A DNA stretch of 64,000 nt, taken from Sinohyriopsis cumingii (Eukaryota > Mollusca > Bivalvia > Unionida > Unionidae). The notes below the pieces were generated by a model. That model saw only the letters and a program-made list of their open reading frames with translations. It had not been told where the DNA came from and made no database searches. The stretch spans positions 48,684,227-48,748,226 of the forward strand of contig CM068830.1 in NCBI GenBank assembly GCA_028554795.2, in the 5' to 3' direction. How positions within the stretch are numbered: position 1 is the first letter of the stretch; each line of letters opens with the position of its first letter. A program made the translations under genes and the position numbers. Shown piece by piece: positions 1,732 through 43,738 of the stretch.

Positions 1732-1777
1732 AGGTTATCTCTTTTCGAGAGAAGTGGGTGGCCCTGAAAAGGGCCTT
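1732..1777 (-). terminator. Histone-type 3' stem-loop plus downstream element (SL1)
   Basis: Read on the minus strand, just after the stop codon of the gene at 1798-2355, the sequence is AAA then GGCCCTTTTCAGGGCC (1775-1760) then ACCCAC. This is a 6-bp stem with a UUUC loop and the flanks of metazoan replication-dependent histone mRNA 3' ends. About 10 bases on is TCTCTCGAAAAGAGATAACC (1751-1732), a purine-rich block in the position of the histone downstream element that pairs with U7 snRNA. No AATAAA follows. The motif is seen directly; use of the histone processing machinery is inferred. Confidence 0.85.
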
Positions 1778-1797
1778 TATTTGGTGTAGGGGTGAGT

Positions 1798-2355
1798 TTA
1801 AGCAATCAACTTTAACTGCCTTAAGCCTTTGCCACGGCCGAGGCCTACTTCTGATGATGATGATTGGGTTGAAATCACTAAGGGTGGTACGGTAGGCTTA
1901 GTCACAGGGTTGGCGTGTTTAGCTCGGGAAGGTCGTATTCTCTTCGGTCGTGATAAAGAAGTCTGATACATTTGTTTCAGACTTCTTAACTCCGCTAAAA
2001 TGTCCAACAGTACCGTGACCGTTTGATTTTCACCCTCTTGTTTCTTTGCTGCTACTTCTTCTTCTTGTTGTTTTTTTCTTACCTCTTCTTGTTGCTGTTG
2101 CTGTTGCTGTAGGAGAAAAGCTTGTTCCGCTTCCTTTTGTTGTTGCATAAATTTCTCCAATTCTTCTTTCTGTCTCTGTCTAAAATTCTCCACTTGCGGT
2201 AATGAAGAATGAGACGAAGGTTCCGGAACAAATTCTTGCGAGGTAAGAAAATCCACAAAATCCCAATGTACCTCTTCTGAAAGTAAGTCCGGGTTCCCTT
2301 GGGCGGTCTCCACTGCTGGTGCACCCCAGTGAATCGTTTTCTGAGTTTCCGTCAT
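1798..2355 (-). CDS. Gln-rich coiled-coil protein of the Polinton-like element (185 aa)
   Basis: An intact 185-codon frame on the minus strand starts at the ATG at 2355. The first ~55 residues are acidic and hydrophobic, with WDFVDFL. Residues 55-110 are a Gln/Glu/Lys-rich helix, including a run of seven or more glutamines, that should form a coiled coil. Residues 115-130 (LLDILAELRSLKQMYQ) look like a second short helix. The C-terminus is basic (PKRIRPSRAKH, then GLGRGKGLRQLK). It is driven from a TATA box (CTATATAG, about 2410-2402) in the shared divergent promoter and ends in a histone-type hairpin 22 bases after the stop. No family recognised; the layout (coiled coil with basic tail) would fit a DNA- or core-associated structural protein, which is speculation. 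Confidence 0.65.
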   Translation of the reverse strand: MTETQKTIHWGAPAVETAQGNPDLLSEEVHWDFVDFLTSQEFVPEPSSHSSLPQVENFRQRQKEELEKFMQQQKEAEQAFLLQQQQQQQEEVRKKQQEEEVAAKKQEGENQTVTVLLDILAELRSLKQMYQTSLSRPKRIRPSRAKHANPVTKPTVPPLVISTQSSSSEVGLGRGKGLRQLKLIA

Positions 2356-2574
2356 GTTGAATCACTGTCGCATAGATTGACTGCACACAGGCGCTAGCGA
2401 ATCTATATAGACCACGTGACGTCACAGACTGCTCTCTTCGGATTGGATGCGGGCTGACTGAATTTTGTCACGCGTGTTTGGATTGGTCAATGAACTCAAT
2501 CCGTTTCAATCCTTCCTCTCCCTATAAATAAGCTCAGTTCAGCGCAATCACTCACCTGTTTTCGGAGCCTCAAG
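2356..2574. promoter_or_regulatory. Divergent promoter with CRE, E-box, two CCAAT boxes and two TATA boxes
   Basis: The 219-base gap separates the divergent genes starting at 2355 (minus) and 2575 (plus). In order it holds a minus-strand TATA (CTATATAG, 2402-2410 region), CACGTG overlapping a perfect cAMP-response element TGACGTCA (2413-2424), two ATTGG boxes (inverted CCAAT; 2442-2446 and 2482-2486), and a plus-strand TATAAATA (2523-2530) 45 bases before the ATG. TATA plus CCAAT boxes between two divergent short genes is the arrangement of metazoan H2A-H2B pairs. Sites are seen; factor binding is inferred. Confidence 0.65.
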
Positions 2575-2805
2575 ATGTGGACCGACGTTCAATCTTCCAC
2601 CCTTGTGTCAACAATGATGTTCAGGACGGACATACCCATGTATGTCTGGTCCAAGTGGACTGTTGTCGATAGGACAGATACTAGTCTATGGATGAGAAGA
2701 GTTTACATAGAAAGACAAGGATGCCTCAAGAGGGTACTTGTGTATGGACCTGCAGTTAGAAGGAGTTTAAGAAGAAGAAGATGTGACAGATGCCGTCTAT
2801 GTTAA
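2575..2805 (+). CDS. Small protein with Arg-rich Cys-containing tail (76 aa)
   Basis: An intact frame of 76 codons begins 45 bases after a TATAAATA box and ends 19 bases before a perfect histone-type hairpin. The N-terminal ~50 residues are mixed, with two Trp and several Met; the C-terminus is RRSLRRRRCDRCRLC, a short arginine cluster with three cysteines that resembles protamine-like or viral core peptides. No family is recognised. Its placement as the outermost gene of the Polinton-like piece and its histone-like control suggest an abundant, S-phase-linked, DNA-associated product, but that is inference from context only. Confidence 0.6.
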   Translation: MWTDVQSSTLVSTMMFRTDIPMYVWSKWTVVDRTDTSLWMRRVYIERQGCLKRVLVYGPAVRRSLRRRRCDRCRLC

Positions 2806-2820
2806 TATTAACATAAAACC

Positions 2821-2861
2821 AAAGGCCCTTTTCAGGGCCACCCACATTTCTCGAAAAGAGA
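2821..2861 (+). terminator. Histone-type 3' stem-loop plus downstream element (SL2)
   Basis: CCAAA precedes GGCCCTTTTCAGGGCC (2824-2839), which is followed by ACCCA; ten bases later comes TCTCGAAAAGAGA (2849-2861). This agrees at every conserved position with the metazoan histone hairpin and its ACCCA flank. It lies 19 bases beyond the stop codon of the gene at 2575-2805, and there is no AATAAA in the 300 bases after it. Confidence 0.88.
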
Positions 2862-2910
2862 CTGACTTTCCATTGCCTACCCTTTATTTTAAAAAATGTT
2901 TTTTAAAAAA

Positions 2911-3262
2911 ATCCCATGTTCAATTCCCCTTGTCCCTAAAGTAGTTTTTTTTTCTAACATGTTCAATTCCCCTTGTCCCTAGACAAACCCAAACTCTATT
3001 CCCATGTTCAATTCCCATTGTCCCTAGACAAGCCCAAACTCTATTCCCATGTTCAATTCCCCTTGTCCCTAGACAGACCCAAACTCTATTCCCCATGTTA
3101 AATTCCCATTGTCGCTAATCTTACCCAGGGTTTTTTGCCCATGTTAAATTTCCATTGTCGCCAAAGTGACCCAGGGTGGTTAATGTTAAATTTCCATTGT
3201 CGCCAAAGTGACCCAGGGTGGTTTTTAATGCTAATTCCCATTGTCGCTAAAGTGACCCCATT
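2911..3262 (+). repeat. Minisatellite at the end of Polinton-like piece A
   Basis: About seven to eight imperfect copies of a roughly 45-55-base unit built on CATGTTCAATTCCCCTTGTC-like sequence followed by CCTAGACAAACCCAAACTC or, in later copies, GCCAAAGTGACCCAGGGTGG. The unit drifts from left to right. Related words (CATGTTCAATTC, ATTGTCCCTA) recur at 43955-44040, beyond the last gene of piece B, so the array probably marks the terminal region of the element family. Confidence 0.65.
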
Positions 3263-3959
3263 CACTACTGTCATATGCTTCTGTTAATACGGGCTAATAC
3301 GTATAGCGGCCTTGTTTTGACTTTAAATATCTGGCACTGTCGAGGTGCTATTAAAATTATAAACAATACATATTCAAATCAACTTGTGAGATTTATTATA
3401 TACATCTCATTCATGTCATTTATACTGCCATTAGTTTTTTGTTCAGGATATGCCTTTCAAATGAAGGAAGTTATAAATATAAAAAAGAATAAAGAAAGAA
3501 TGTTAATTATAACAAAGAACATTTATTACTAATTGTGTATATCATTAGATGTTGAAACTAAAGTGAAACACAGGGATAATCATATTCGTGAATTGGGCTG
3601 CATGATAGGTTCGGTAATTGTCAGTCTGAGATTAAGACTGCATATTACATGTTAGACACTCAAAACATTATACAAATAGTTATCAAGAAGAAACGTTCTG
3701 CTTGGCAATGCTCAAAAACGTTATCAAACAAGTACGACACTACAACAAAAAGACATTTCATAAGGGTCTAACGCTTTACTGGGCGAAAAGAATTTCCACC
3801 AATGACAGATAAAATCACTCCTTCCTTTTAACGTGTGAGTCAAATTAGCTGCCGTGGTAGACGTATTGGAAATGAGAGTGGCACTATTTTCATTTAGGAT
3901 AAAGTACACATCATAAAAGTGTTTTGGCGAAAACCACATGTCATAATGATTATACATTT
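3263..3959. other. No gene recognised
   Basis: AT-rich sequence right of the terminal minisatellite. Short frames here have no recognisable domain or splice context. Confidence 0.5.
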
Positions 3960-5990
3960 ACAGGAAGTAGTGACAACAAGCTTTTTTAAAATAGTAGTCA
4001 TGGCAGTCCTATTGGATATACGAGTGGACGATTCCCATTTAGGTCCCACTTGGTATAATAATAGGTATACTTCTGAAAACCCCTTGCAGATATAACCATT
4101 AATTTTGAAGAAGTAGAGATAACAATATGTGTAAGATATGACTTTGCATGAACGAGTAGTAATAAGAAGATTTTCAAGATGGCTGCCTTGGCAGTCATAT
4201 TGGACGCAAGATCAGAACAATTTAAATTTAGAACCCTCCAGACATCATATGAAATCATTTAGTGAAAACACTAAGTTGATATAACGATCTATGTACGAGA
4301 GGTAGGAGTAAAAACAAAATTGTGACTGCGGCAGTAATATTGGTGGTCAGATAGGTACCATTGTCATTTAAGACCAACTAGACCTGATAAGAAACCTTTC
4401 AGTGAAAACGCAATGCTGATATGACCATCCATTCCGGAGAAATAGCAGTAAGAACATTTTCAAGATGCTACCATAGTAGCTATAATGGACGGCATATCGG
4501 TACCATTTTAATATAGTCGCGACATCAGCGAAAATTTAATTTTTATATTACCATCCATGAATGAGAACTAAGAAATAAGAAGACTTTCAACACGGATGTC
4601 AGATTGGAACCATTTTCATTTTGGAGCAAGTGAACATTATAAGACGTTTTAGTGAAAACCACGTGTCGTAGACCATCCATTCAAGAGGAGTAGGGATAAC
4701 AAGGTTTTCAAGATGGCTAGATACGGTTGTCTGCAGCAACATTTTCATTTCGGGAGAGGTAGACCATGAGATAAATGTGTATGTAAAGTTTCATGACAAT
4801 ACTCCAATTAGATTAGGAGTAGCGATTAAAAACTTGTTCAACCATTTATTCAGGAGGACTAGCGGTATAAAGATTTTCAAGATGGATGTCGGCCATACTG
4901 GACGCCCGATTTACACTATTTTCTTATGTGACCAACATAAGAAGTAATCTGTGTGAAAACCCTATGACGATATCATCAACCATGTAGAAGAAATAACAAA
5001 AACAAGATTTTTAAGAGAGCAGCGGCTACAGCCATATTGGACATCAGACTGACCATATTTTCGTTTGGACCAATTAGACAGCATAGTAAGTTTTTTTATA
5101 TAACGAAAACCGCGTGTTCAGATGACCATCCTTTCAGGATGAGTAGTGATAACAATATTTTCAAATTGGCCATTGTAGGGGCCATATTGGATGTGCACAC
5201 AGCACGATTTTCATTTAGGGCCATATAAACCATAAGATGAGTGTGTATGTAAAGTTTCATGGCAATTCTCGCAGTAGTTCAGGAAGAGTAACAATAACAA
5301 ACTTGTGCCAACGAACGGACGGACAAGGGAAGTCGGACGACGGGCGACAGACGACTGACAATGGGCAATAGACTATCCCATAAGCTCTTCTGATCTATGG
5401 CCAACACCATTTCATTTTGAACCGATTAGAAATCGTAAGAAGTCTTTTAGTGAAGACGCCATTTTGATTCAGGAGAAGTAGCGATGACAACATCTTCAAT
5501 ATGGCTGCCATATTAGACAAACTATCAGAATCATTTTTATTTATTTATTTATTTATTTATTTATGTATTTATTTTATTATGATAAATATACATTTTCACA
5601 AGAAGTGTTTCAGTTAAATCCATACGGCGATATGACCATCCATGCAAGAGTAGCAGCGATAAGAATATGTTCAAGATGGCTACCATTGCACCATCTTCAT
5701 TTATGACCAGATAGGAGTCATAAACAGCCTTTTAGTAAAAACGCCAGGTTGATATGACTATTCACTGAGTAGCGATAACAACAGTTTCAAGATAAATAAG
5801 GTGGTGGCCATATTGCATGGGCGACCAGCACCAATTTCCTTTTGAACCATGTAGACCATGGGATGAACGTGTATGTAAAGTTTCATGGCAATCATCTAAG
5901 TAGTGAAGGAGGAGAGGCGATAACAAACAGGTGGTAACGGACTGAGGGACGACAGATGGCGGAAAGCAGACCAGTACAAAAGATTTTCTG
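3960..5990. repeat. Degenerate tandem repeats, unit about 170-190 bases
   Basis: Diverged copies share the ordered words TTTTCAAGATGGCTGCC, CATATTGGAC, CATTTTCATTT, AAGAAGTCTTTTAGTGAAAAC, ATGACCATCCATTC and GAGTAGCGATAACAA. Copies can be followed from about 3960 to 5960, with TGTAAAGTTTCATGGCAAT and ACGGACGGACAAGGG near 4780, 5260-5330 and 5875-5945. No coding potential. This looks like an old non-coding satellite-like array of the host. Confidence 0.6.
5534..5571 (+). repeat. (TTTA)n microsatellite
   Basis: About nine units of TTTA/ATTT lying inside the degenerate array. Confidence 0.9.
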
Positions 5991-6407
5991 CTCTATGGCT
6001 AGTCAAGTAAATACAAAAAATATTTGGAACCATCTTTATGTACCTTACGCTTTTCTAAATGGTACGGGGAAATAACAGAATACAGAAAATACTTCCAATT
6101 TATGAAGGTGTGTGTGTGTGATTTAGGTTTTTAACGTAGCTTTAACAACTTTTCAGCTATATCGCTACGATGTCTGTAGTGTGGCAGTTTAGCACTGGGG
6201 CATCATTCCGCAGACATGTAGCATGATGTTCCACCAAGTCACATTATCCTGACACCAGGCCGACCAGTCCTAACACTAACCTCGTAATGCTGAGCGTCAA
6301 GTGAGGCAGCTGTTAGTACCATTTTTGTAAGTCTTTGGTATGACTCGGCCGTGTATCGAGCAATTTATGAAGGAACTCAATAATAATAATAATAATAATA
6401 ATAACAA

Positions 6408-6445
<38 letters not shown>

Positions 6446-9400
6446 TCTCCATTACGACCACCTGAATACAATTTCGTTGTGGCTACAGATACAGATTGAT
6501 TGGTTTCCATTAATATACATGCTGCGTATTTTTCTTCCCGTTTATTATGTGACGAGTCCGTGTTTAATATTTTTATAGCCAAAATGATTCAAGCGAACGA
6601 ATAAATTCCTCACAGGAATTCTGCATTTTTCTTTCTAATTCCTAATTTCTAAAGGAGTATTAAATGGTTTCACTTGTGACGTTTCATGAGTATGTAGTCA
6701 ATAATGGGCGACACTAGGCAACTCAGAGTAAAATACAAGTGTACAAGGACGCAATGGAAATTAACGTATGCAGTTGTTTTTTTTTTTTAAAAGTTACTCG
6801 ATATGTTGTCCTGACGTATAAAAATTTTAGGAAAATGTACATATGTACATTTTAGACAACTTCAGTTTATGACTAGAATTATAATGGTTCAAATGAATAT
6901 GTATATGGACAAATATGAGATCTTTTGGTATTGTAACCTGTCGGTAGCTATCTGCTAGCGTAAAACTGCATATTACTCGCCAGTTTTGTTGTGGATTCAA
7001 TCAACATCGGTATCTTCTCTAGTGTTAACCTGCCCTCAGGTAGTCTTTAAGCCCATTATTATATTGTATATTTGACCTAAACGGACGAGACATTCCATTT
7101 ATGTATCCCGAATGTTTTAAGTAGCTGACAACATGATGCAGCATATGGTCATGTATTTATTGATGGAGTGGCTCTTGAGGAGATATTATTTTAAACATAT
7201 TTTGCTGGTTCTAATGTTACCTAAATATGGCGGCAATGCATGATCGTCACACGACTTATGTGCAATTAAAGGCCATTTAGAGACGGATGAGCCATACAAA
7301 ATAGCTAAAATCGCTAAAATGGGTAAAATAGATCATAACGATTCTAGAACATAAAACAAAAAGAAAACGTACAGAGGACTATCGACGAAGCGCAAAAGAA
7401 GTAAGACCAGAATTTCACTTGGCCATCTCATATAGAGAGATCTCATATAATGCAGTAGGTGCAATCAACAAAAAAGCAAACAATAGTAGTAATAACCTTT
7501 GTATCAATTCGTACAAAAGGAAACACGAATCCTTCTATGATATATACTGCTCGAAGCAATATAGAATCTCCATGCGCGAGGAATAATGACCTTCGCATCT
7601 ATTATCTTTATCTTTATATATTATATAGTTTTAGAACTATGTACACATCAACAGTATGTATGTATGTATGTATGTATGTGTGTGTACAGTCAGAGAGAGA
7701 GAGGTGTACTCACATGATTACTTATAACTGCGATGATCCAACTACATCTTTGTTATAACTGTGATGTAGGTTTCCTCCCGCTTTCTTGCTAATATAGAGA
7801 ACAGTGTAATTGGGTTCAGACGAACAAATAAATAAACCGATAGGCTATCAGAGAGGTGAATTGTTCTTTCTAATTTATTACTGCGCAATGAATGTTAATT
7901 GGTTTTACTTGTGAAGTAACAGAGAGTTGTACATGCACACATTCGAACAAAATGTGTACACGTACAAATCTCTATTACTTCAATATGTTGATCCGTCACA
8001 TATAAAATGTGTACATGTACAAATTCATGTTACTTTGATGTTGTGTTCTGGCGGCCACTATCGGCCATCGTAGAAACGTGACCTGGTTCTGTCTTTCATG
8101 TGGTTTTCGCAGTCTTCCCAAACGTGTGAAATATCGAGTTTGCTTGATAGATGCTGATTTGCTTTCGTCAAGAGTCAAGTATCAGGGTTTTAACAAAATC
8201 ACTCGGACAAGCTCTGATACTGTGGTAGGCATGAGCATTAAATGTCTATTGTTTTCCGATTTCTTCAGTTTCTTTAAAGCTTGCCATTTTCTGGTGCCAG
8301 TGGCAAAGTAGCTAGTAATTTTCTTCCAAAAAGTAATTCAGCAGGGCAGTATCCATTCAGTAATGATGTTGCACGATAATGTCAAAATAGTTTTGTAAGG
8401 ATCGTCTGTCTTTTTCAGCATTCTTGTCATTATTTGTATATGTGTTACATACATACATACATACATGCAAACATATATACATACATACAAGTAGAGTGTG
8501 TTGATTTCTTTCAATACCAGCTTGTTTACAAGGAACAATTTGCCATAATGTAATAAATAAGAAAAATATAATTAACAGGGCTAGGAATTAACCTTTCATT
8601 ACTAAGTGAAGGATAATATTTATGAATTTCTTATGTATGCGATTTGCTGTATGCAGTTGACCAACAATCTTTCTTATACAGTTTAAATCCTTCGTGTCCA
8701 GGTCTAATTATGCATACTTTCAGCATCAAGACCCGGCTAACATGCTTTATAGGAAGAATCTTAGTAAAACAAATCAAAAGCCGCCGAGACCTTTACTCTG
8801 TGCATTGTATCAGACAACGCTGCAACTTGCCTGCATCTGTACATTATGCCTTAGGGTTAGACAGCATTTACACAAGATAGTTCATATGTACCTTTGTGTA
8901 ACTGTCTACAGGAGCTTTATTCATAATGTAAAGCATTTATATACTGGTCTCCTCAATCGTCGAAAGTCGATGCCATTTTGTTCACTCCAGTAACTCAGAG
9001 TTACCTACAGATTCCCCACTTCCAAGACCTCACGTTTCTAGTCATGAGCACTCCGTTTTTGACACGTTGTCTACACTATTCTACGTATTTACGGATAGAT
9101 TTGATAGACATGAGGCTACACACACACACACACACACACACACGCAAGCACGCACACACACACACATGCATACATACATACATACATACATACATACATA
9201 CATACATACATTATTACGACTCTGTCGTTTTAAATATGTAATAGAAAGTGTGAGAAGCAACAGACTTTGAAAAATTCAACAAAGATTTTATTTCCCTTGA
9301 TTACAAAGTGAAAATAAAGAGAAAGAACTTATGATATTGCGAATTAGATCCCAAAATAATCATAGAATTGCAAACAAAAGTTCCGATGATAAAAGGAATG

Positions 9401-10179
9401 AATAAACTTTAGTGGAAATCCAAATTAAATCCAACACTGAAAGGGTTGATGTGCCTGCGATGGCTCGTAAAGTGTTGTTTCGTCAACAGTCTTTTGTTGG
9501 ATTATAATAATACAATCCGAGATTATATCCTTTTTTGTATTTCACTATAAAGCCAAGTCTCTATTTCCAAGAATGTTATTAGAGCACGTTTGTATTTCCA
9601 GAGAAGAAATTATTGGAATAACTAAAATTCCAGCCCATATGAACTACTGGTCACAACAATAATACAGACTAATTCTACTAAGATTTTAAAGCACAAATGA
9701 ATAATTTTTCCATTGACAATATTATATAGTCCACTACTTGACCTCCGGTCACAATTAGCATTTTGTCATAAAAACCCTTACAGAAGGCTTCTAATGTTTA
9801 CAAAATAAAATCTATGTTGTAATTACTTTAACTGTATGTATAACTATTTCTAAAAGTATAATACAAAATGTAGTAAACAACAGGTAGACCTGGCAATTTA
9901 TGCGGAAATTTCCAATAACCTAGACAAAGACCCAAATAAACATGTTTACTTCTGTTGATAGTGATTTTAATATCAAGCCCATATACAAAGAGAATATTTT
10001 AGTCATATATTAGTTGTTCACTGTCTTTAAAAAAATCAGTAATTAAAGTCGAACAGAAAATGAACTTGAACTTTTACAGGGTTAAGTCCAACATACAATA
10101 TTACATTACAATAGTATAAAGTGAAATAAGATTTTTAAAGCAAAATTAACAAGCAAACAATACAAATTTAAACATACAT

Positions 10180-10235
<56 letters not shown>

Positions 10236-10362
10236 ACACATTCCTCATTGTGACAACCAATTCATTGATATTACAGAACAGAAAACGATTCATATAAGCA
10301 CCTTGCACGCAAGTACTGTTTATGGCGTTCCATAACTATTACCAATTTTGTTCTTATTTCAG
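5991..10362. other. Gene-poor spacer with microsatellites
   Basis: No exon or transposon was recognised in this 4.4 kb. It holds (AAT)n then (ATT)n at 6379-6443 (a self-complementary pair), (TATG)n at about 7652-7682, (ATAC)n at 8444-8490, (AC)n then (CATA)n at 9117-9211, and (AC)n at 10184-10241. Short frames across these tracts are low-complexity artefacts. Confidence 0.55.
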
Positions 10363-28699: not shown

Positions 28700-29911
28700 G
28701 TGTGAATTTAATGTTGGTGTTGCTGATATTTATTGTTTGAGGTAAAGGATGTGAATGAGAAAGTCATTGTGTTATGATCAGAATGGCCTCAGTTTTATCA
28801 TCATTCACCTGCAGCTTGTTACATGTCATCCATGATTTCACATCAGAAACGCACCTCTCTACACCTTGGATGGTAGCATCAACTTCAGTTGGGTGGCTAG
28901 ATTTGTATATTTGGGTGTCATCAGCGTACAATTGGTGAGACACTGGATGATGATCTATGAAAATTGAGAGCGGCTGAGTATATAGAATGAAGAGAACAGA
29001 TTCAAGAACAGACCCCTGTGGAACATCACAACATAGATTAACTGGATTCGAGTGTATTCCATATGCAGACACAATTTGTGTCCTGTTGACCAAGTAGGAC
29101 TTGAACCACAGAAAGGCTGTATCATGAATGCCAAATACATGCTGGAGACGGTGAAGTAATATATCGTGATATATGGTGTCAAATCATTCAGACAAATCAA
29201 GGAGGGTGAGGACTGTAATCTTTCCGCTATTCAAAGCAGAGATAATGTCATTAACTACTTTTAGAAGAGTAGTTTCAGTACTGTGGCAAGGGCGATATGC
29301 AGATTGTACATTGCTAAAAGACTGTTTGAATTCAGATGAGATACAAACTGGGATAGAACAACCTTGTCTAAGATTTTTTAAATGAAGGGGAGATTAGAAA
29401 CTGGGTGGTAGTTCTTTAAATCGTTATGGTCTAGTGTTGGTTTCTTCAGCAAAAGCTTTACAATGGCAGTTTTGAAAAATGATGGGAATTCCCCGGATGA
29501 GAGAGAGGCATTAATAACATCAGCTAGTGAAGGCAATACTGGATCTAAGCACTCAAGCGGCAGTGATGTTGGAACTGGATCAAGTTCACATGACTTTGGT
29601 GCACTCTTTATCACGATTGTACGTACTAAATCCATAGAGACAGGTTCAAATGCTGCTAATGGTTGCCGCTGAAATTCTGTATCCCAACTCTATGGTGGCG
29701 ACGAGTCAATTGAAATTGTGGTGTCAAGCTTATCTCTAATGGTTTGCATTTTGTCACGGAAGAAATTTGCAAACAGGAGATTCGGAAACTGCTCCAAAAA
29801 GAGAGATTCTGTCAGCTTGTTTTTTCTACTAGGAGGAGGGCGGTATAGGCAGAAAAAGATGTTTCCTTTGTGACTTACTTGTGCATAAACGTGCAACCAA
29901 GACCGACCTTG
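28700..29911 (-). mobile_element. CR1/L2-like LINE fragment, 5'-truncated and internally deleted
   Basis: Minus strand. From 5' to 3': an endonuclease-side remnant (29920-29830, NIFFCLYRPPPS then LTESLFLEQFPNLL), a jump without the rest of the endonuclease domain to FANFFRDKMQTIR, then reverse transcriptase with KSCELDPVPTSLPLECL and LKNYHPVSNLPF (29635-29378), and after a frameshift DVPQGSVLESVLF and LYADDTQIY (29093-28764), the latter holding the catalytic YADD. Several frames are needed, so it is inactive. Its 5' edge abuts the Polinton polymerase remnant at about 29911, which probably explains why that element starts mid-gene. Confidence 0.75.
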
Positions 29912-30945: not shown

Positions 30946-30976
30946 TTAGTGGGACCACCTCATTAATCTCTGGATG

Positions 30977-32599: not shown

Positions 32600-33320
32600 T
32601 CTACTGTCTCTGCTCCCTTTGCCTCCATATTCAAAGTCGTCGACGAACACTTAGATAGTACCAGTTGGGAGGCCTTGTATCTCCGCCATACCTTTAACAT
32701 GTTATAATTACCGGACCCAGCGGTTCAGGCAAAACCGAATTTGTCAAGCGTATGATCGAACATAAACATCATTTGATCGATCGTCCACCTCAACGGATCG
32801 TGTGGTGTTACAAAGAGTGGCAATTGGCGTACAGTCTTTTGCGAGAAAGTCAAGGCGATTCCATTGTGTTTGTGAAAGGTATTCCTGGCGAAGACGATGG
32901 GATCGTGTCTGACCCCAGTCAAAACCATCCGATCATTTTCGACGACATGTTATGAGAAGACGAAGAAAAAATTAAACTGTGGTTTACGCGCAAAAGGCAT
33001 CATCGTAATGCCAGTGTCATTTACATCAACCAATTTCTTTTCAACAAAGTAAAACGCATAGCAATATCAGTCGCAATGCTCATTATGTGGTCTTGTTTAA
33101 AAGCCCCAGAGATAAATCGCAAGTGCAAATCTTAGCCAAACAGTTAGGAACGCATTGGCTGACTCGTGCGTACGACGATGCCAGTCAAACCCCACACGCC
33201 TATTTACTCGTGGATTTAAAACATATACCCCCCCCCCATTTGCAATTTCGTACCCATCTGTTTCACTACTGGTGCCAAGACAGAGGGCCTGTGGTATACA
33301 CGTCCCCGTCATTGACATAA
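32600..33320 (+). pseudogene. A32/FtsK-type DNA-packaging ATPase, frameshifted
   Basis: Walker A GPSGSGKT is at 32713-32736 and Walker B PIIFDD at 32929-32946, followed by a TGA at 32953-32955. The same phase then gives FTRKRHHRNASVIYINQF, the arginine and sensor region. A frameshift near 33060 leads to FKSPRDKSQVQILAKQLG and AYLLVDLKH, the usual C-terminus. The start is also disturbed by a one-base shift at about 32703-32708. In Polintons and related viruses this ATPase drives genome packaging into the capsid. Walker motifs are intact but the frame is not, so no full product can be made. Confidence 0.82.
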
Positions 33321-33548: not shown

Positions 33549-33561
33549 TTACAGAGTCAAC

Positions 33562-33771: not shown

Positions 33772-33779
33772 GCTTGACG

Positions 33780-36057: not shown

Positions 36058-37170
36058 ATGAGAGGTGTTAGCCAGCATTTACTACGATCCATCCCATTAT
36101 GCGGGATACTGAGGAGTTCAGAAATTGTATTATGCTGCCAGAATCCGTCCGAAAAGTCTCCGTTTACCTCAAGTGCAACGACGGCTACAGGAACAAGCCA
36201 CGTACACTTTACACAAACCTATTCGACGAAACTTTTCCAGACGTTACACCCGAGTGGAGGGCATCGATCAGCAATGGCAAGCCGATTTAGCCGATGTCTC
36301 TCATTTGGCCACCTACAATCGTGGCTACAAATATTTGTTTTATGTCATCGACGTCTTTTCAAAATTTGCCTGGGTCGTGCCATTAACTTCCAAATCGAGC
36401 AGTGAATTAGTGCGAGCCCTCAAACTGGCGTTGAAACAAAGTGGTCGTCACCCTCTTCGATGTCAAACCAACAAAGGCACCAAATTTCTGAACCAAGCTT
36501 TCCAAAAAGAATTAAAGAAATTTGACATTAATTTTTTCACCAACGAGAATTTCGAAACCAAAGACAGCATCGTGGAACGTTTTCAACATGCTATGAAAGA
36601 ATGCATGTGGAAATATGTTACACATCAACATACTCTCAAGTGCATCGACGTCTTACCGCACCTTTTTCAAGCCTACAAGCAATCTTACCATCGGAGCATC
36701 GGACATGCCTCCCAAGAAGCGACTCCCGACAATAAAGTGACTGTTTTTTATCGCCTGTTTGGTATGTCCCGCGACTGTAGCTGTCCCCAAGAAAAGTGGA
36801 GTGTTATCAGCAGGAGCTTGGGTCTGCATTGGCAAAACCAAACATACTTTCGAAAAAGGTTATGTACCCAACTGGACCACTGAATTGTTTCGTGCCACTG
36901 GATGAGTGAGAGTCCGTCATCTTGCTGTCCATAAATTGGAAGACATGAACGGGGAAGTGTTAAAAAGAACGTTTTGCTTACCCGAGTTACAACGCGTAAC
37001 CAAAAACGAAGACAAATTTTAAGACATCGAAAGCATTCTCGAACGATGAATCCGTAAAGTGGAAAAACGTCGTGTCAAAGAAGTCAAAGTGCGTTGGAAA
37101 TTATATCCTACCAGTTTTGATTCTTGGATCGAGGCTTCGCAAGTCATCGAATATAAAAAGAAGTCACCAT
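36058..37170 (+). pseudogene. Chromodomain integrase (c-integrase), catalytic residue lost and frame broken
   Basis: The RNase-H-fold core is clear: the first Asp in QADLADV (36284-36286), then CQTNKGTKF with Asn (AAC at 36470-36472) where retroviral-type integrases have the second Asp, then SIVERF with Glu (36575-36577). Spacing from the Asn to the Glu fits D35E. A TGA interrupts the N-terminal part near 36099 and the frame shifts near 36790-36840. Further stops follow, but the C-terminus still shows a chromodomain (VEKRRVKEVKVRWKLYP, then FDSWIEAS, about 37060-37132). This architecture is typical of Polinton integrases, which insert the element DNA. Asp-to-Asn loss plus stops makes it inactive. 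Confidence 0.85.
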
Positions 37171-37583
37171 CATGCCCTTCCACACAGCTTCAGCTACCAC
37201 TACTACCGCAGTGATCAATCGTTCATCCAGTTCTTCTCTGAAAGATCTATAAAAGCAACCCTTGTGTGTGGGTGGTGGAGAACGAGTGCCTTAAACATAA
37301 CTCGTCTTTTTCTGCCAAATCTTTGTATGGTATTGTGTCATCGGTGCGGCCATTGCCAATTTGAGATTGCAACAAGAATACCAACAATTGTGGACAATTT
37401 TACTGAGCAATTGCATCGGTTCCATTCGCCCCAATTCTTTCCTGAAATACTTCTCGAACTGGAACAACGGGAGCCCTGCGAGCAACGTCAGTCACTCTCT
37501 CAGCAGTCACCACCCAACAACAATCCTCTTTTAGACACTCCTCTGACCTCGAGTGGCCCCTCGGACAGCAGAACTCTAGAAAT
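37171..37583 (+). pseudogene. Unassigned coding-like stretch between integrase and penton genes
   Basis: Frames change several times. Short plausible pieces include IGAAIANLRLQQEYQQLW and a Ser/Pro-rich end. No family recognised; it may be an additional small capsid-associated ORF. Confidence 0.3.
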
Positions 37584-38480
37584 ATGAACAACATCAACCA
37601 GCCTTACTTAACGTTATCCAGCGACAGTTCCATGGAGGTGTTTCCCAACAAATATGTATGCTGTTTCACGACCAAATTACCTCAGGCTATCCAATTGGAT
37701 CACGAAGCCCTTTGGGAAGTGGCTTTGGTGGAAATAATTCACCCTACACAAATAAATGTCGTCGAAAATCAAAACAGTTTTGAGGTCGAAATCTTTAATG
37801 ATTAAATTCGACAATATTTGATAGAGAACAAACCTACAGATGCCGCTAAGGTCACCGATGTTTCACGTCGCACCTATATCTTGTTCATTCGTCCAGGGTA
37901 TTGTTTTAGTGTCCAAGATTTGGTGGACGCAATTGCTGAAAAAGTCAAGGAAGCGTTTGGCGAAGCCCTGGACAAATTTTATTTAAAAAAGTAACGAACG
38001 AGTACCATAAAGTGGATCGTCGCCTAATGATGAAATTTCAGAATGACAAAGTTTTAGGTATTGTATTTTGTCCTGAATTGTTTGACATTTTGGGTAGGGA
38101 CATGATGAGGAAGAAAGCAGAGGATAAAAGCGAATTAGCAATCGTTTACGACAACCCGAGTTTCGCAAATTGGTTTCGTTCCCCGGTAGAACTGAACCAA
38201 TTTGATCTTTGTGTTCTCCGATGTGGTGGAGTGGAGTACAACGTGGTGGGACACATCTCCGTACCGTTACTGCGTGTCATTCCTTTCAAAGTGGATTCTG
38301 CCGCGAACGTTGACGATTAAGGCGGAAACACCTATCGCGTCCACCGCGAATATGTACACTATTTGTCCGTCAGCAAGTTTTATTTTCACACTGTCAACAT
38401 TTCTTTTAAAATGAGATGTGGGACAAAATATTGCGTTCACCAAAGGGAAAGTCACGGTGAAATTCCATTTTCAAAAATAA
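37584..38480 (+). pseudogene. Penton-like (minor, single jelly-roll) capsid protein, broken
   Basis: The start at 37584 gives SDSSMEVFPNKYVCCFTTKL and WEVALVEIIHP, the conserved N-terminus of Polinton penton-type proteins. TAA at 37803-37805 ends the first frame; the same phase continues as coding-like sequence to stops near 37992. From 38012 a second frame gives VEYNVVGHISVPLLRVIPF, then a further stop at 38318-38320 and a frame change before the C-terminal beta-strand words (HYLSVSKFYFHTVNI; VTVKFHF at about 38452-38472). In capsids of this lineage this protein occupies the vertices. Gene order (before the minor and major capsid genes) fits. Non-functional here. Confidence 0.72.
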
Positions 38481-38499
38481 TTTTGTGACGAATCGTTAG

Positions 38500-38825
38500 T
38501 CATTTATCCTGTGTACCATGAGGTCGATCGACATCGAGGACATGGTTTAGGAGATATGAAGAAATGGGCCTTTCGTTCGGTGTCTCTGGTTTTGAAACTG
38601 ATGATGACACAAGGATTGCATGCCTTGAAATACGCCGCGCTGACGCAAGGAAAAGAATTTCTCCAAAATGTCATCATCGACAAACTAAACCATAAAGTAG
38701 CTTTCTTGAGAGCAAGCAAAAACGTCTTGCTTCAGACGGGCAAAGACATTTTGGGACGACGAGAAACGCCTATAAATGCCCTGGACACTGCCGAGTCAGG
38801 CATTCCTGCTTCCCTTACTCCATAG
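38500..38825 (+). pseudogene. Minor capsid protein (GHGLG type), near-complete frame
   Basis: The frame contains YHEVDRHRGHGLGDMKKWAF, matching the Gly-rich start (GHGxG followed by a helical hydrophobic segment) of the small protein that precedes the major capsid gene in Polintons and is thought to act like adenovirus pVI. Residues 25-75 are helical; the end is Ser/Pro/Thr-rich. The frame stays open for 104 codons to 38825, the longest continuous piece in this part of the element, but its true start is uncertain because sequence upstream of 38511 is also in frame without an ATG. Confidence 0.55.
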
Positions 38826-38949
38826 CAAGGACAAGGCAGAGACGACGATAACACCCCTTCAGAGTACGTCATACCCCCAGAATAGAAGAACCTTCCGAGA
38901 CTTAGAAGTTTTTGATTGTTACAAAAATCAGAGAGAAAAAGAAAGAAAG

Positions 38950-40266
38950 AAAATTATGCACCGAAAGTCTTGCGCCTCTCCAAAGTCGGAACTGGATCTG
39001 TTTGCCATGCCACCCACTATTATTTACAATGTAAGAATCCCAATGGGTCGAATTTCACCCCGTCTCCTCTTTGTCCGATTCAGTTCCCATCGAGTCTGAA
39101 ATCAAAAGACAGCCCGAAGATTAAATTGATCTGAACAGCAGTTACTTAAACCTGAAAGTAAAAGTTCAAGATAAGGATGTAAAAGTTCGAGATAAAGATG
39201 TAGGTCCTATAGAATACAGTAAGAAAGTAGCTCCCGTCAACAATTTCATGCATGTCTTGTTCAGTTCAGTGGATTTGTACTTGAATAACAAACTGGTCAG
39301 CAGCAGCATGGATACTTACCCTAACCGCGCCTACCTGGAAAATCGCTTGACGTACGGAATAGACGCCAAGAAGACCCATCTGTGCGCCTGCATGATATGG
39401 GAAACTGACGAGGCGGAAAGGTCGACACATTATCGAAAGATAATAATAGAGTTGAAAAGTAACGAAACATAAACAAGGATGGACGTAATTTAGAACTGAT
39501 GGATTGCTTGTATTTGGAGATATGATTGCAAGGGAAGTATTTACTTAGCGGCGTGGATGTCCGCCTGAGACTGAATCTTAGCAGTACCGCTTTCCATTTG
39601 ATGTCTGATGCTACTGATTACAAAAACAAACTCGAGGAAGCCAGACTCTACGTGCGTCTCGTAGAAGTGTTACCCAAAGGGAGAAACGATATCAGTCACA
39701 CTTTGAGCAGAACGACTGACAAATATCCGACACGACGCGTGGAAGTGAAAACCTTCATCATTCTCAGGAATCATCATTCCATGATCGAAGATAATCTGTT
39801 ACAAGGACAGTTACTCAAACGTTTAATCATTGATATCGTCGAGAACGAAGCCTTCAACGGAGCCTTAGGAAAAAATCCTTTCCCCTTTCAGCACTTCCAC
39901 GTGAAGAAAATTGAATTCAGTCAGGATGGCAAGACCTTCAATACCCGACCTTTCAAACCTGACTTGAAGAAGAAGAGTTACTTGTGATCGTACTTGTCCC
40001 TGTACGAAGCCACCAGACAGTTAGCTACCAACACCAGTCACGGTATTACGTACGATGATTATACAGAAGTCTGTGCTTTGTGGGCTTTTGATTTTACTCC
40101 AGACCAAGGCAGTGACAAGGGACGTTTCCACCCTATGAAATCCGGCCAAATTCGTATCGAAATATAGTTTTCTGAAGCCTCAGACGAGACAGTGAACGTT
40201 ATCTTGTATGTCGAATTCGATAATGCCATAGAAATCAACAGTTTCAGAGAAGTTATTCTAGACTAG
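38950..40266 (+). pseudogene. Hexon-like double jelly-roll major capsid protein, broken
   Basis: Recognised by position and motifs: SELDLFAMPPT at the N-terminus (38986-39018), then after a frame change IDLNSSYLNLKVKV, VAPVNNFMHVLFSSVDLYLN, YPNRAYLENRLTYG; then a further break; then LLSGVDVRLRLNLSS, KYPTRRVEVKTFII, LLQGQLLKRLIIDIVENEAF and FDFTPDQGS, ending in FDNAIEI. Stops include TAA at about 39122, TAA near 39470, TGA at 39985-39987 and TAG near 40166. This set of words, in this order, is that of Polinton/adintovirus major capsid proteins, which share the adenovirus hexon fold. The four breaks rule out a full product. Confidence 0.85.
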
Positions 40267-40423
40267 TAGAAGCTATTGAAGTCTAATACCTCTTTGAACA
40301 GTTGAGAATCTTTGGAAATGGAATGGGAGGATACCGTGGAAACATAACCCAAAGACAAAGACGAATAGGTCATAGTGATGAAGTCCAGATGATCAGAACA
40401 AGAACAAGATTTAGTCTCCTGTT

Positions 40424-40612
40424 TTGCCAAACACTTGGCAGAAAAAAGTTACGGAACTGATCAAGAAAGATTGCTTTGGCTGTCAAAACGATCATCACAT
40501 TCAACTTCAGCACGACAAATGTCTGATTATGAGTCAAGAAGAAAAACTGGACGAGTATCGGGACGAAGCTTGGAGTCTATATCGAAAGAAGCAGTTTGCA
40601 TCAGTGGTATAA
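40424..40612 (+). pseudogene. Cys/His-motif ORF between capsid and protease genes
   Basis: The frame gives TELIKKDCFGCQNDHHIQLQ then HDKCLIMS, a C-x2-C...H...H-x2-C arrangement that could bind zinc and recurs in Polinton ORFs near the capsid or protease genes. It is preceded by heavily decayed sequence from 40270. Function unknown. Confidence 0.45.
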
Positions 40613-40689
40613 AGACTTGCTTGATCATTCCTCTCCTCCACTTATGGTTTTAGATAAACAAAGAAACGGTTGCTTGTCAGACATTTTCA

Positions 40690-41285
40690 AACACAAAGTT
40701 CGGATTGAATAGATTACTTATCATTACCTGTGAAAAAAGAAGAAGAAAAAAATCGATACGTGGGAGCGTTGTTACTTTTTGAACCACAGTTCGTACACTG
40801 CTTTTTGGAATCCTATCATGTGTGCTAAAGATGAGCTGTCTAATCGCAAACCTCAAGACCACCAAGTTTGTGTCATCAAAACGGACGACAGTCAACTCCC
40901 AGGAACCCTCTGGGTAGCCGTCTACTTTCCTAAATAAGGTTGTTTGGAGTATTTTGATTCGAATGGATTGCCACCTTTGGAAGACGACATCATAAACTTT
41001 ATGAGACGAAATGCTCAGACGACACGATTCAATAATGTGAAATTACAAGGCAAATATTTAATGGTGTGCGGACAATATTGTGTGCATTTTCTTTATCAAT
41101 GTAGTCTTGGATATTCTTTAGAACATTTAGTGACTTATTTTGAATGTCACTCTCCTAGAAACGATGACAAAGTAGATCGATGGTTTTCTGACCATTATGG
41201 TTATCTTTTATCTTTAGCTAGGAAATGTAGTGTACACCAATGGCCCAATGACTTCCATCAGAGGAAGTCTATCCTTACTTCATAA
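40690..41285 (+). pseudogene. Adenain-like (C5) cysteine protease, catalytic His replaced
   Basis: The C-terminal 113 codons (40944-41285) hold EYFDSNGLPP, with the Asp that orients the catalytic dyad, KLQGKYLMVCGQYCVHFL, with the nucleophile Cys at 41067-41069, and a Gly-Tyr-Ser helix. Upstream in the same phase, before a TAA at 40935-40937, lies PGTLWVAVYFP. In this family the equivalent is G-T-H-W-V, so the catalytic His is Leu here (CTC at 40908-40910). These proteases mature virion precursors in adenoviruses and Polintons. Two independent lesions, a stop and a catalytic change, indicate an inactive copy. Confidence 0.82.
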
Positions 41286-41372
41286 CGTTGTCAACCTAGT
41301 CAAAGATAGTGTGTTATTTGAAAAATGTTTGCTTGTTTGAAAAATTGTTAATTGTTAGTTTTTAGTTATTTT

Positions 41373-41378
41373 AATAAA
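41373..41378 (+). terminator. Poly(A) signal AATAAA after the protease gene
   Basis: TTTTAATAAAAATGTTGTGT, about 90 bases after the protease stop. The block of core and capsid genes thus ends in a polyadenylation signal. Confidence 0.6.
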
Positions 41379-41510
41379 AATGTTGTGTTTTGAAAAAATT
41401 GTGCCTGTCGTTTGTTTTCATATTTTATCATTATACATGCTCTTTGACTTCTCTATATCCCTCACCCTAAAATCAAACTATCACAGCGTTCCAACTCTAA
41501 ATATTGTATG

Positions 41511-41550
41511 GATGTTTTCTATCGCGTCCGCGCTTGAACTATATAAAGCG
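41511..41550 (+). promoter_or_regulatory. Promoter with shared upstream element and TATA (small gene 1)
   Basis: GATGTTTTCTATCGCGTCCG then CGCTTGAACTATATAAAGCG. The TATA box (CTATATAAAG) is at 41539-41548, 46 bases before the ATG at 41594. The upstream element is shared with the two promoters at 42281 and 43231. Confidence 0.7.
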
Positions 41551-41593
41551 AAGCAGTCTCCAGTCTGACCATGCATTGTTGAATCCTTCTTAT

Positions 41594-41944
41594 ATGAAGA
41601 TGTCTTATAATTTAGCTAAACTAAACGAAGCCTATGTGCATCTGCACCTTGTCAGCCATCGCCTGATATCCAAGTCTGAAGAGATAGAGAATGTCAGAAT
41701 GCTGAAATTAGCCGGAGACCTGATAGGAGAGGTCTTCAGAGAGGAAATCAAGAAAGAGCAAGAAGAGTGGACTGAGAAGTACAGACTTCAGAAGCAGAGA
41801 CAGCATCAGCAACAGCAGCAACCAAACAGATGTTTTGTGGATTGTCGTGTGGACACGAAAGAGTTCTCCTTCTCTTTGCAAAGAAGAAGACCCTATCCGG
41901 TGGGAAAACCTGTCGCCAGATGGGGACGCAATGTTAGACGATAA
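41594..41944 (+). CDS. Small coiled-coil protein with basic tail (116 aa)
   Basis: Intact. Start at 41594 (MKMSYNLAKLNEAYVHLHL) chosen because it lies 46 bases after the TATA box; an upstream in-frame ATG at 41504 precedes the promoter. Residues 1-75 are largely helical and charged, followed by a Gln run (QHQQQQQ), a short CFVDCRVD segment and an Arg-rich end (QRRRPYPVGKP, RWGRNVRR). It ends 31 bases before a histone-type hairpin. No family recognised. The N-terminal helix with alternating Leu/Met resembles the next gene (MSRISKLWELQMRLEYSMRL), so the two may be diverged paralogues. Confidence 0.65.
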   Translation: MKMSYNLAKLNEAYVHLHLVSHRLISKSEEIENVRMLKLAGDLIGEVFREEIKKEQEEWTEKYRLQKQRQHQQQQQPNRCFVDCRVDTKEFSFSLQRRRPYPVGKPVARWGRNVRR

Positions 41945-41975
41945 AAGATTGCCATAACTCCCCGCCCACAAAAAC

Positions 41976-42014
41976 AGTCCTTTTCAGGGCTACCCCAATA
42001 CTCTAGAAAAGAGA
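41976..42014 (+). terminator. Histone-type 3' stem-loop plus downstream element (SL3)
   Basis: AGTCCTTTTCAGGGCT (41976-41991) pairs over 6 bp with one G-U, keeps the TTTC loop, and is followed by ACCCCA and then TCTAGAAAAGAGA (42002-42014). The stem differs from SL1, SL2 and SL5 at two outer positions that still pair, i.e. compensatory-type change. Confidence 0.8.
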
Positions 42015-42280
42015 TACTAGTTCATTTGCCAATTGTATGTTAGCAAGTTGAAAAATAGGAGTGTGTCTATATGCACTTCATTTCTTTGTTTTAAGTATAA
42101 CAAAAAAAATAGTATGGTGAATATAAGCACTTCGTTTCCGTAGTTTGTATTAATAAAATCGTCTATATGTGTTTGTTTTGTAGTTCGTGTTTGTATTCAA
42201 AAACGAAATGATTGTTTCTTTTAAGTCTTGGCGTTCCATGTTTTTTGTGATAATATGGGTCTTCTAAGTTTTGGTAATGG

Positions 42281-42321
42281 GGATGTGTTCCTTCACGTCT
42301 GCGCTTCACATATATAAAGCG
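42281..42321 (+). promoter_or_regulatory. Promoter with shared upstream element and TATA (small gene 2)
   Basis: GGATGTGTTCCTTCACGTCT then GCGCTTCACATATATAAAGCG. TATA (ATATATAAAG) lies about 52 bases before the ATG at 42371. TTCCTTCACGTC is shared with the promoter at 43231 and, less exactly, with that at 41511. Confidence 0.7.
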
Positions 42322-42370
42322 AAAGCGTTCGTCAATCTGGCTACACAGCGTTCGTTCGTTAACATTCAAG

Positions 42371-42891
42371 ATGAGTAGAATCAGCAAATTATGGGAGCTT
42401 CAGATGCGTCTAGAGTATTCCATGCGTCTCCTGGACGAGCTGGCCATGGATGCAATCCAGGAAAGTATCAGCTTGAAGAAGAGTAGGAGAAGAAAAGGAA
42501 TGAACAGGAGAAGGAAAAGAAGGAAATTATCCTGCCTCACCTGATGCCAAGACAGAGCTGTAAAGTGAAGCCGATGGCGACGACAGCTCCACAGAAACAA
42601 GCACCACAGCCACAACCAGCACAGAGACCCAGGGTCTCACAAATAGAGAACTGGGACCAAATGTTGGGGAGGCAAGAGCGGGAGCCTCAGCGACCGCCTG
42701 AGGTAGGGAGGCAGCTTCCACGGCTGCAGAATAGGAGAAAGAGGGAAGGCTTCAGGGTCCCTCAAAAAGAAGCTTGGGATGATGAGGCCACTCTAGCTGC
42801 CCCCGCACTCCCAGCAGGTACATTCAATTGGGACAATGACTGGAGTCGCTGCTGTGTCTGTGGTACCAGGCCTGGGCGATGTAACGATTAG
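42371..42891 (+). pseudogene. Small coiled-coil/Pro-Gln-rich gene, probably frameshifted
   Basis: The ATG at 42371, properly placed after the TATA box, opens a 57-codon frame (MSRISKLWELQMRLEYSMRL) that ends TGA at 42542-42544. A second frame in another phase uses ATG at 42544 (overlap TGATG) and runs to 42891. It is rich in Gln, Pro and Arg and ends WSRCCVCGTRPGRC, a possible zinc-binding tail. In the second phase, coding-like Glu/Lys sequence extends upstream of 42544 to a TAG at 42484-42486, so the two frames more likely come from one gene broken near 42470-42486 than from two overlapping genes. The following histone-type hairpin is also degenerate. Confidence 0.5.
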
Positions 42892-42917
42892 CCAGGTAAA
42901 TATGAGCTAAAAACAAC

Positions 42918-42933
42918 AGTCGTTCTCAGGGAT
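42918..42933 (+). terminator. Decayed histone-type stem-loop (SL4)
   Basis: AGTCGTTCTCAGGGAT lies 27 bases after the stop at 42891, in the same position as the others. It matches SL3 at 13 of 16 bases, but the changes break stem pairs and the loop, and no ACCCA or purine-rich block follows. Confidence 0.5.
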
Positions 42934-42949
42934 AATATATTTGGGGTTT

Positions 42950-43205
42950 GTTTTCCCTCCCTTCTGTGTGGATAGTAGAGTGTGTGTTTGTAGGAGTTCA
43001 CGTACGTTTGTGTGGATAGTCCATTTTAGCTTTTGTTTACTCTTCCCGAGTGTGGATAGTATATTTCGGGTTTGTGGATAGTATACAAAAGTTTTTTCTT
43101 CTTCCCGTATGTGGATAGTATATTTGTGATTGTTTTTTTGTTCTTCCCATGTGTGAATAGTAGATTTGGGGTTTGTATGGGTTTGCGTACGTTGTGTGGA
43201 TAGTA
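42950..43205 (+). repeat. Degenerate repeats built on GTGTGGATAGTA
   Basis: About seven copies of GTGTGGATAGT(A/C), each followed by TATTTGGGGTTTGT-like and CTTCCC words, at uneven 25-60-base spacing. They fill the gap between small genes 2 and 3. Confidence 0.75.
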
Positions 43206-43230
43206 GATAATATCTGAAGTGAGTGTAAGG

Positions 43231-43269
43231 GATGTTTTCCTTCACGTCCGTGCTTGATATAATGTCAAG
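43231..43269 (+). promoter_or_regulatory. Promoter with shared upstream element and variant TATA (small gene 3)
   Basis: GATGTTTTCCTTCACGTCCG then TGCTTGATATAATGTCAAG. The element is nearly identical to that at 41511 and 42281. The TATA box is changed to GATATAATG, about 45-50 bases before the ATG at 43309. Confidence 0.65.
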
Positions 43270-43308
43270 TGTCCGTCATTCGCGCAATTCAACATTGAAT
43301 AAACCAAG

Positions 43309-43695
43309 ATGGGAAGTAACCACCTTGAGAAGATGAAGAATCTGCGAGACGTTGTGGATAATTCGGGAATGACTGAAGAAATGCTGGTCAAACTCGATGG
43401 CGAGTTTTACTTTTATATTCCCCATCGAGTCAAGATGGAAATAAATAATCTGAGAAAGTCAAAGGACATGTTAAGGGAGGTGATGACAAAAGAAAAGGAG
43501 GAGAATGAGGATGAATGCGACAGAAAACAAAGAAGGGAATGGAATAAAACTATAGAAAAGGAAGAGGAAGAGGAGAAGGAGAAAGAGCAGAAAGATGAGA
43601 AAGAGGAGAAAAAGAGGAAGAAGACAACAGCAATAACAAAACTAAGAAAATTGGTGGAAGAAAAGAAGAATTTAGAAGAACAGGAAGAAGAATAA
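43309..43695 (+). CDS. Small acidic/basic coiled-coil protein (128 aa)
   Basis: Intact. The first ~50 residues are mixed (MGSNHLEKMKNLRDVVDNSG, then a Tyr/Phe-rich patch FYFYIPHRV). From residue 55 on it is almost pure Glu/Lys/Arg coiled coil. It ends 7 bases before a perfect histone-type hairpin. Such charged repeats are easily produced by low-complexity DNA, but the promoter, start, stop and hairpin are all correctly placed, which supports a real gene. No family recognised; other small genes of the element share the charged helical style. Confidence 0.62.
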   Translation: MGSNHLEKMKNLRDVVDNSGMTEEMLVKLDGEFYFYIPHRVKMEINNLRKSKDMLREVMTKEKEENEDECDRKQRREWNKTIEKEEEEEKEKEQKDEKEEKKRKKTTAITKLRKLVEEKKNLEEQEEE

Positions 43696-43702
43696 ACCCA
43701 AA

Positions 43703-43738
43703 GGCCCTTTTCAGGGCCAATCATATGTCTCGAAAAGA
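43703..43738 (+). terminator. Histone-type 3' stem-loop plus downstream element (SL5)
   Basis: CCCAAA then GGCCCTTTTCAGGGCC (43703-43718), identical to SL1 and SL2; the 3' flank is AATCA instead of ACCCA. TCTCGAAAAGA follows at 43728-43738. Confidence 0.85.

Follow-up and report, generated by a model that had tools for sequence, protein, structure and literature searches.

Can the genes of a virus-like mobile element that do not encode histones use the 3′-end signals of histone mRNAs? This question is raised by 64,000 nt of DNA from the bivalve Sinohyriopsis cumingii (assembly GCA_028554795.2, contig CM068830.1, forward-strand positions 48,684,227 to 48,748,226; 'the window' below means this whole stretch), for which an earlier note, made from the letters without database searches, had described small genes of a Polinton/adintovirus-like element that end in hairpins of the type found in replication-dependent histone mRNAs. 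We found such hairpins, followed by a purine block at a near-fixed distance, after copies of non-histone genes of this element in six classes (here called A to F), and from their sequence and placement we consider it likely that the mRNAs of at least six small Polinton genes near the element ends acquire their 3′ ends through the replication-dependent histone pathway of the host.

Histone-type hairpins in the window

The window was searched with the Rfam Histone3 model (RF00032, cut-off 34 bits), which returned three hairpins over the cut-off (at 2824, 1760 and 43703), and with a hairpin pattern, which at up to three mismatches gave four matches against 0.64 expected, a number that none of 100 shuffles reached. 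The fourth site, the gene F hairpin at 41976, was not listed at the RF00032 cut-off in the window search. These positions agree with those of the four small genes in the earlier note, and all four intact hairpins lie 7–31 bases past the stop codon of a gene whose protein is non-histone. As described there, the changed stem of the gene F hairpin keeps its pairing, and each of the four hairpins is followed by a purine-rich block (CTCGAAAAGA or CTAGAAAAGA), with GAAAAGA at a host-like spacing. A fifth hairpin that had been called decayed, at 42918, has no match with two or fewer mismatches in the window pattern scan; it follows the broken remains of a gene that was placed in class E by eye, and in other copies the hairpin of this gene is intact. 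The hairpin observation is confirmed, and it extends beyond the window. The hairpin genes and their 3′ modules are as follows.

1798–2355, minus strand: gene A (P0001, 185 amino acids (aa)), glutamine/glutamate-rich, with a basic stretch on the C-terminal side
1760–1775, minus strand: histone-type stem-loop of gene A, 22 nt past the stop and outside the terminal repeat; RF00032 36.8 bits
1740–1746, minus strand: purine block GAAAAGA of gene A, 13 nt past the stem-loop; putative U7-pairing element
2575–2805, plus strand: gene B (76 aa, isoelectric point (pI) 10.8), with an Arg-rich C-terminus
2816–3269, plus strand: terminal inverted repeat of the left insertion (copy 1), ending in TTCACTACT and including the 3′ end of gene B; its start was placed by eye, from the letters common to the B, C and D ends
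2824–2839, plus strand: histone-type stem-loop of gene B, at the inner edge of the terminal inverted repeat; RF00032 40.4 bits
2853–2859, plus strand: purine block GAAAAGA of gene B, after the stem-loop
41594–41944, plus strand: gene F (116 aa, pI 9.9)
41976–41991, plus strand: stem-loop of gene F, AGTCCT-TTTC-AGGGCT, pairing intact; from the pattern scan
42006–42012, plus strand: purine block GAAAAGA of gene F, 14 nt past the stem-loop
42371–42891, plus strand: gene E, decayed, frame broken; C-terminus DWSRCCVCGTRPGRC, class E-like by eye
42918–42933, plus strand: decayed stem-loop of gene E, by comparison with class E hairpins
43309–43695, plus strand: gene C (P0004, 128 aa, Lys/Glu-rich), with homologous open reading frames (ORFs) in other copies
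43703–43718, plus strand: histone-type stem-loop of gene C, 7 nt past the stop; RF00032 34.3 bits
43732–43738, plus strand: purine block GAAAAGA of gene C, after the stem-loop

Recurrence across the genome

A Histone3 search of the 2.9-Gb genome gave 589,472 first-look candidates, only 75 of which were scored, so that the counts are a lower bound. All 75 scored sites, distributed over 24 contigs, exceed the cut-off, and all 75 were read: upstream of each one, in the same orientation and no more than 250 nt away, is the end of a tblastn match to one of four genes (A at 23 sites, B at 29, C at 11 and D at 12). None of these upstream genes is a histone gene, and some of the copies are broken. Classes E and F are two further hairpin-bearing gene classes beyond A–D. 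In a wider module survey there were 160 hairpin-like matches; we set aside ten with neither a gene class nor a purine block, and of the 150 that remained a few resemble chance matches.

The hairpins also stand at the same place in gene copies that were not picked by their own hairpin, being present in 27/28 copies of A, 19/19 of B, 21/21 of E, 1/1 of D and 1/1 of F (counted as tblastn rows that reach the C-terminus with at least 100 nt downstream). Without the downstream filter the distinct loci number 51 for A, 36 for B, 9 for C, 10 for D, 21 for E and 1 for F.

The surroundings of the hairpin genes bear on whether they could be debris of a histone cluster, an idea to which the identity of the element hairpin with that of the host H2B gene lends some colour. 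The genes are non-histone, however, and they adjoin PolB, CCHC or protease-like genes, with A, B, CCHC and PolB found together in 24 of the 75 loci; the host histone genes are in separate tandem arrays of ∼8.27 kb, apart from the element genes (L080; contigs C14, C310, C531 and others). For the copies seen, a debris origin is refuted, and its probability is in our judgement close to nil. The ORFs are element genes, as had been claimed.

Comparison with host histone genes

The host's H1 protein is of molluscan type: it is 98% identical to one database protein, and the named matches among the 120 listed include Mytilus, Saccostrea, Crassostrea, Haliotis and Liolophura, which by itself points to a mollusc, probably a bivalve. 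The host histone repeat unit that was read, 8.3 kb long, holds five Histone3 matches, in three of which the purine block lies at 13 nt and in two, those of H2A and H1, at 14 nt. The host H2B hairpin is exactly GGCCCTTTTCAGGGCC, identical to the 16-nt element hairpin, and GAAAAGA follows 13 nt on. The element modules have nearly the same geometry: GAAAAGA, with at most one change, lies 13 nt past the hairpin in 50/51 modules of class A, 53/55 of B, 13/13 of C, 12/12 of D and 13/14 of E, and in class F it starts at 14 nt.

The stems vary in ways that keep them paired. Across 14 hand-picked element and host hairpins, pairing is kept in 84 of 84 pair cells, five of which are changed on both sides; when these hairpins were shuffled, 1 of 500 shuffles reached this number of doubly changed cells and 58 of 500 reached the number of pairs so changed. 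In class E the hairpin is AGCCCT-TTTC-AGGGCT in 12 of 14 copies, with A-U in place of the closing G-C. Past the purine block, there was no convincing similarity between element and host flanks, with 3 of 35 shuffle comparisons below 0.05 (0.018–0.038), all of them between H2A flanks and three of seven viral flanks. Capture from a host gene, argued from flank similarity, was rejected on this result.

Terminal repeats and placement of the module

In a comparison of flanks across loci, B flanks (53 of 54) and C/D flanks (24 of 24) could be matched to each other over up to ∼450 bp; of the four longest pairs listed, three have 92–96% identity and the fourth has 81%. The B and C/D hairpins are at the inner edge of a terminal inverted repeat (also in L021, L029, L057 and L058), whereas the A, E and F hairpins are internal, outside it. 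In the window the repeat ends with CACTACT at 3263–3269, which makes gene B the terminal gene of the left insertion, and the TTCACTACT terminus followed by differing sequence is seen in 10 of 11 inspected copies, the eleventh (L058) having TATACTACT. Matches of A flanks to the other two groups come largely from single copies: 50 of the 87 A–B pairs involve one chimeric copy, L007, and 50 of the 67 A–C/D pairs involve L056.

Genes C and D alternate at one position between copies (L044, L065, L043, L056), and with C-termini that are similar by eye they look like exchangeable modules; their sharing of one place fits a module supplied by the repeat. In L056 (1–1950), gene C lies near CCHC and PolB, the usual place of A and B, and its flank is A-like, while the B flank of L007 resembles A flanks; both arrangements show signs of recombination between copies. 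Two loci at 1.90 and 1.91 Mb of contig C8 (L041 and L042) are very similar and 9.7 kb apart, possibly a tandem duplication.

The position of the B and C/D hairpins, where a terminal repeat of up to ∼450 bp has its inner edge, would also suit a role at the level of DNA, in which the hairpin is part of this repeat as a site for the integrase or terminal protein, or as a replication or packaging signal, and its histone likeness is superficial. This explains B and C/D only, since the hairpins of A, E and F are not in the repeat. Moreover, all 75 searched hairpins are in sense orientation after a gene, the spacing of the purine block is near-constant and like that of host histones, and the Histone3 model fits both flanks as well as the stem. 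We hold a DNA-level role to be quite unlikely as the explanation of the hairpins.

Conservation and relatives

The median ratio of nonsynonymous to synonymous substitution rates (dN/dS) is 0.37 for gene A (30 intact genomic copies) and 0.14 for gene B (569 pairs from 45 intact copies), values taken from pairs that are non-independent and, for B, in many cases near saturation. Both genes look to be under constraint. Identity in B copies is 0.994 for the hairpin and 0.982 for the purine block vs 0.75–0.90 in the surroundings, and in E copies 0.956 and 0.976 vs 0.86–0.90.

Gene A has 20 homologues in public protein sets (best E value 4e-96; alignment A1). A further protein, P0015, is 65% identical to the gene A product and is encoded on a 1,150-base jgi/ena contig, possibly from the same or a related species. 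It ends in ...WPISGPPTSLEKRYYVNCQFQ, running in frame into a translated hairpin and purine block. The 3′ untranslated region (UTR) of gene A in L040, translated in one frame, reads RPFSGPPTSLEKR*TFNCQ, and the score of the match was reached by 0 of 2000 shuffled UTRs. Because the C-terminus of P0015 matches this translated UTR, gene A there also appears to precede a hairpin and purine block. A gapped hairpin-plus-purine pattern was found in four viral contigs, none with a Histone3 match over the cut-off, and these were judged to be chance.

A proposed route for element mRNAs

We infer from the sequence that SLBP would bind the hairpin and that the U7 small nuclear ribonucleoprotein would pair with the GAAAAGA block, CTCGAAAAGAGA being the element sequence proposed for pairing with the host U7 small nuclear RNA. 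Cleavage directly past ACCCA, 3′ of the hairpin, would then give a short mRNA without a poly(A) tail, which would be plentiful in S phase, be translated then, and be degraded once DNA synthesis stops. Genes B and C/D would get the module from the terminal inverted repeat, and A, E and F would have modules of their own. Because the module lies inside the repeat, any gene at either end would receive a histone-type 3′ end. It is fairly likely that a whole class of non-histone mRNAs passes through SLBP and U7 in this manner, with a module built into the terminal inverted repeats that makes the end genes automatically S-phase-linked and tail-less.

Several results weigh against this route. AATAAA or ATTAAA occurs within 250 nt past the hairpin in 43 of 145 cases, which leaves room for poly(A) ends, and the gene A hairpins (0.915) are no better conserved than their flanks (0.83–0.96). 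The B and C/D hairpins lie within the terminal repeat, so that their identity is due in part to repeat homogenisation. Hairpin score was the basis on which the 75 loci were picked, and the gene copies not picked by their own hairpin adjoin picked ones; one gene A copy (L031, minus strand, 71% identical to the window protein) is without a hairpin. Host U7 was not found with RF00066, though a miss with this model is no proof of absence. Neither the integrase, the gene A alignment nor the integrase alignment had relatives in viral_contigs, the gene A alignment had none among prokaryote genome contigs, and the strict hairpin pattern had 0 matches in IMG/VR.

The first two of these results, together with the weak H2A flank values given above, would agree with a module that was taken long ago from a histone gene and kept by duplication but is not used, the true mRNA ends being the downstream poly(A) sites. 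Such a history does not readily account for a module that is kept after six gene classes, that changes in ways that preserve pairing, that is conserved above its flanks in B and E, and that is still present in P0015, and we regard disuse as unlikely. The presence of several hairpins per element in dozens of copies could also suggest that they titrate SLBP of the host, as decoys that reduce its histone mRNA, and do not mainly shape viral mRNA ends. Decoys, however, would presumably need neither a purine block at a fixed spacing nor one hairpin per gene past the stop, which makes titration a very improbable purpose. Two outcomes that the earlier note had named as speaking against its interpretation, the lack of hairpins at the same place in other copies and an origin from histone-cluster debris, did not occur, and the comparisons with the covariance model (three window sites and 75/75 scored genome sites over the cut-off) and with host histone 3′ ends (H2B hairpin identical, block at 13–14 nt) agree with that interpretation. 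On these sequence comparisons, processing of the element mRNAs by the host histone pathway appears supported.

If so, this would be an unusual route of viral gene expression, used by about six non-histone genes, and it would tie the element's proteins to host DNA replication. Transcripts of this kind would presumably be missed by poly(A)-selected libraries, and the element genes would supply naturally occurring SLBP/U7 substrates for tests in molluscs.

Gene content of the two insertions

The two parts of the window with element genes, described in the earlier note as pieces of one element, are more readily understood as two insertions, since the left one stops at a Polinton terminus, at 3269. 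Besides genes A and B, the left insertion contains:

3–941, minus strand: type-B DNA polymerase gene, N-terminal part, running past the window edge; the same gene elsewhere matches PF03175
1061–1477, plus strand: CCHC zinc-knuckle gene (PF00098, 6.9e-14), without a histone hairpin

Pfam gave no match for the polymerase piece in the window itself; the same gene in L074, continuing in L081, matches PF03175 (DNA_pol_B_2) with 2.5e-17 and 1.1e-23 in two open pieces of L081. The gene B product may be a DNA-condensing core protein, judged by charge only. Genes A, C and F have no family in PHROGs or Pfam, with only weak scores under the cut-off.

The right insertion (copy 2) is a broken copy at about 32.1–43.7 kb, in which genes F, E and C come after protease-like pieces; the window search showed no TTCACTACT terminus on its right side. 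Upstream of gene F it contains:

32698–33317, plus strand: packaging-ATPase-like pieces, decayed; Walker A GPSGSGKT, FtsK_SpoIIIE 0.0016, under its cut-off
36113–37211, plus strand: rve integrase, decayed; PF00665 2.7e-11, chromodomain-like part in another frame (by eye)
37940–40280, plus strand: penton- and hexon-like pieces, decayed; from the order of pieces, with PF16903 Capsid_N 0.11 for one piece
40734–41282, plus strand: protease-like pieces, decayed; the same pieces lie upstream of gene D (L044) and gene C (L065)

The order of these pieces is ATPase–integrase–penton–hexon–protease, with profile matches that are weak or none. Two further penton-/hexon-like pieces have no Pfam match, and the protease-like pieces have none over the cut-off. 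The penton and hexon names are putative and follow the position of the pieces, and the protease name is likewise putative. The database homologue of the integrase, P0025, 80% identical, matches PF00665 and PF00385, and the integrase profile matches PDB integrases and chromodomains. Core and capsid genes had been said to end in AATAAA instead of the hairpin. This is the case for the protease-like gene, with AATAAA at 41373, but it is clear for no other, and such signals also follow 43/145 hairpins. Reverse-transcriptase-like open pieces lie between the two insertions (28767–29689) and to their right (46984–48884), and presumably resemble Penelope-like and non-long-terminal-repeat elements.

Polintons, or Mavericks, make a 6-bp target-site duplication. 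The Polinton part of the earlier description is borne by the type-B polymerase (PF03175), the rve integrase with a chromodomain in its homologue, and the terminal inverted repeats, whereas membership in the adintoviruses in the strict sense is not demonstrated; the N-terminal 313 aa of PolB have no OTU match in Pfam.

Comparison with known systems

To our knowledge, among animal mRNAs the histone-type 3′ end belongs almost exclusively to replication-dependent histones. Both element and signal are known, and their combination is, as far as we know, new: the accessible part of the open-licence literature yielded nothing on such ends in the genes of Polintons, adintoviruses or other viruses. The available portions of three papers contain no such wording, with no stem-loop, SLBP or polyadenylation in PMC11071296, no 'histone' in PMC4028283, and no 'histone' or 'stem-loop' in PMC8097293.

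With the Polintons/Mavericks, as far as they are described in the available part of PMC4028283, the element shares PolB (PF03175), the rve integrase with chromodomain, the order of pieces and the terminal inverted repeats. The adintoviruses, in the corresponding part of PMC11071296, have in common with it an rve integrase with a C-terminal chromodomain and a type-B polymerase, but the OTU-like PolB N-terminus and recognisable hexon seen in them are not demonstrated for this element. The same part of that paper describes 'Histoid' genes of adomaviruses and tailtomaviruses, which are also a histone-related feature in animal DNA viruses; those genes encode histone-like proteins, whereas the element has non-histone proteins with histone-like mRNA ends.

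The host pathway, as set out in the available part of PMC9756948, consists of the hairpin, a downstream element, U7 pairing and cleavage without polyadenylation, and histone mRNAs are a unique class without a poly(A) tail in the part of PMC12775136 available. The element module is like the metazoan histone mRNA 3′ end (RF00032) in its 6-bp stem, its UUUC loop, the A-rich stretch before and mostly ACCCA after, the purine block 13–14 nt on and a score over the Rfam cut-off. Unlike it, the element module follows non-histone genes of a mobile virus-like element, and it is supplied by a terminal inverted repeat at both ends.

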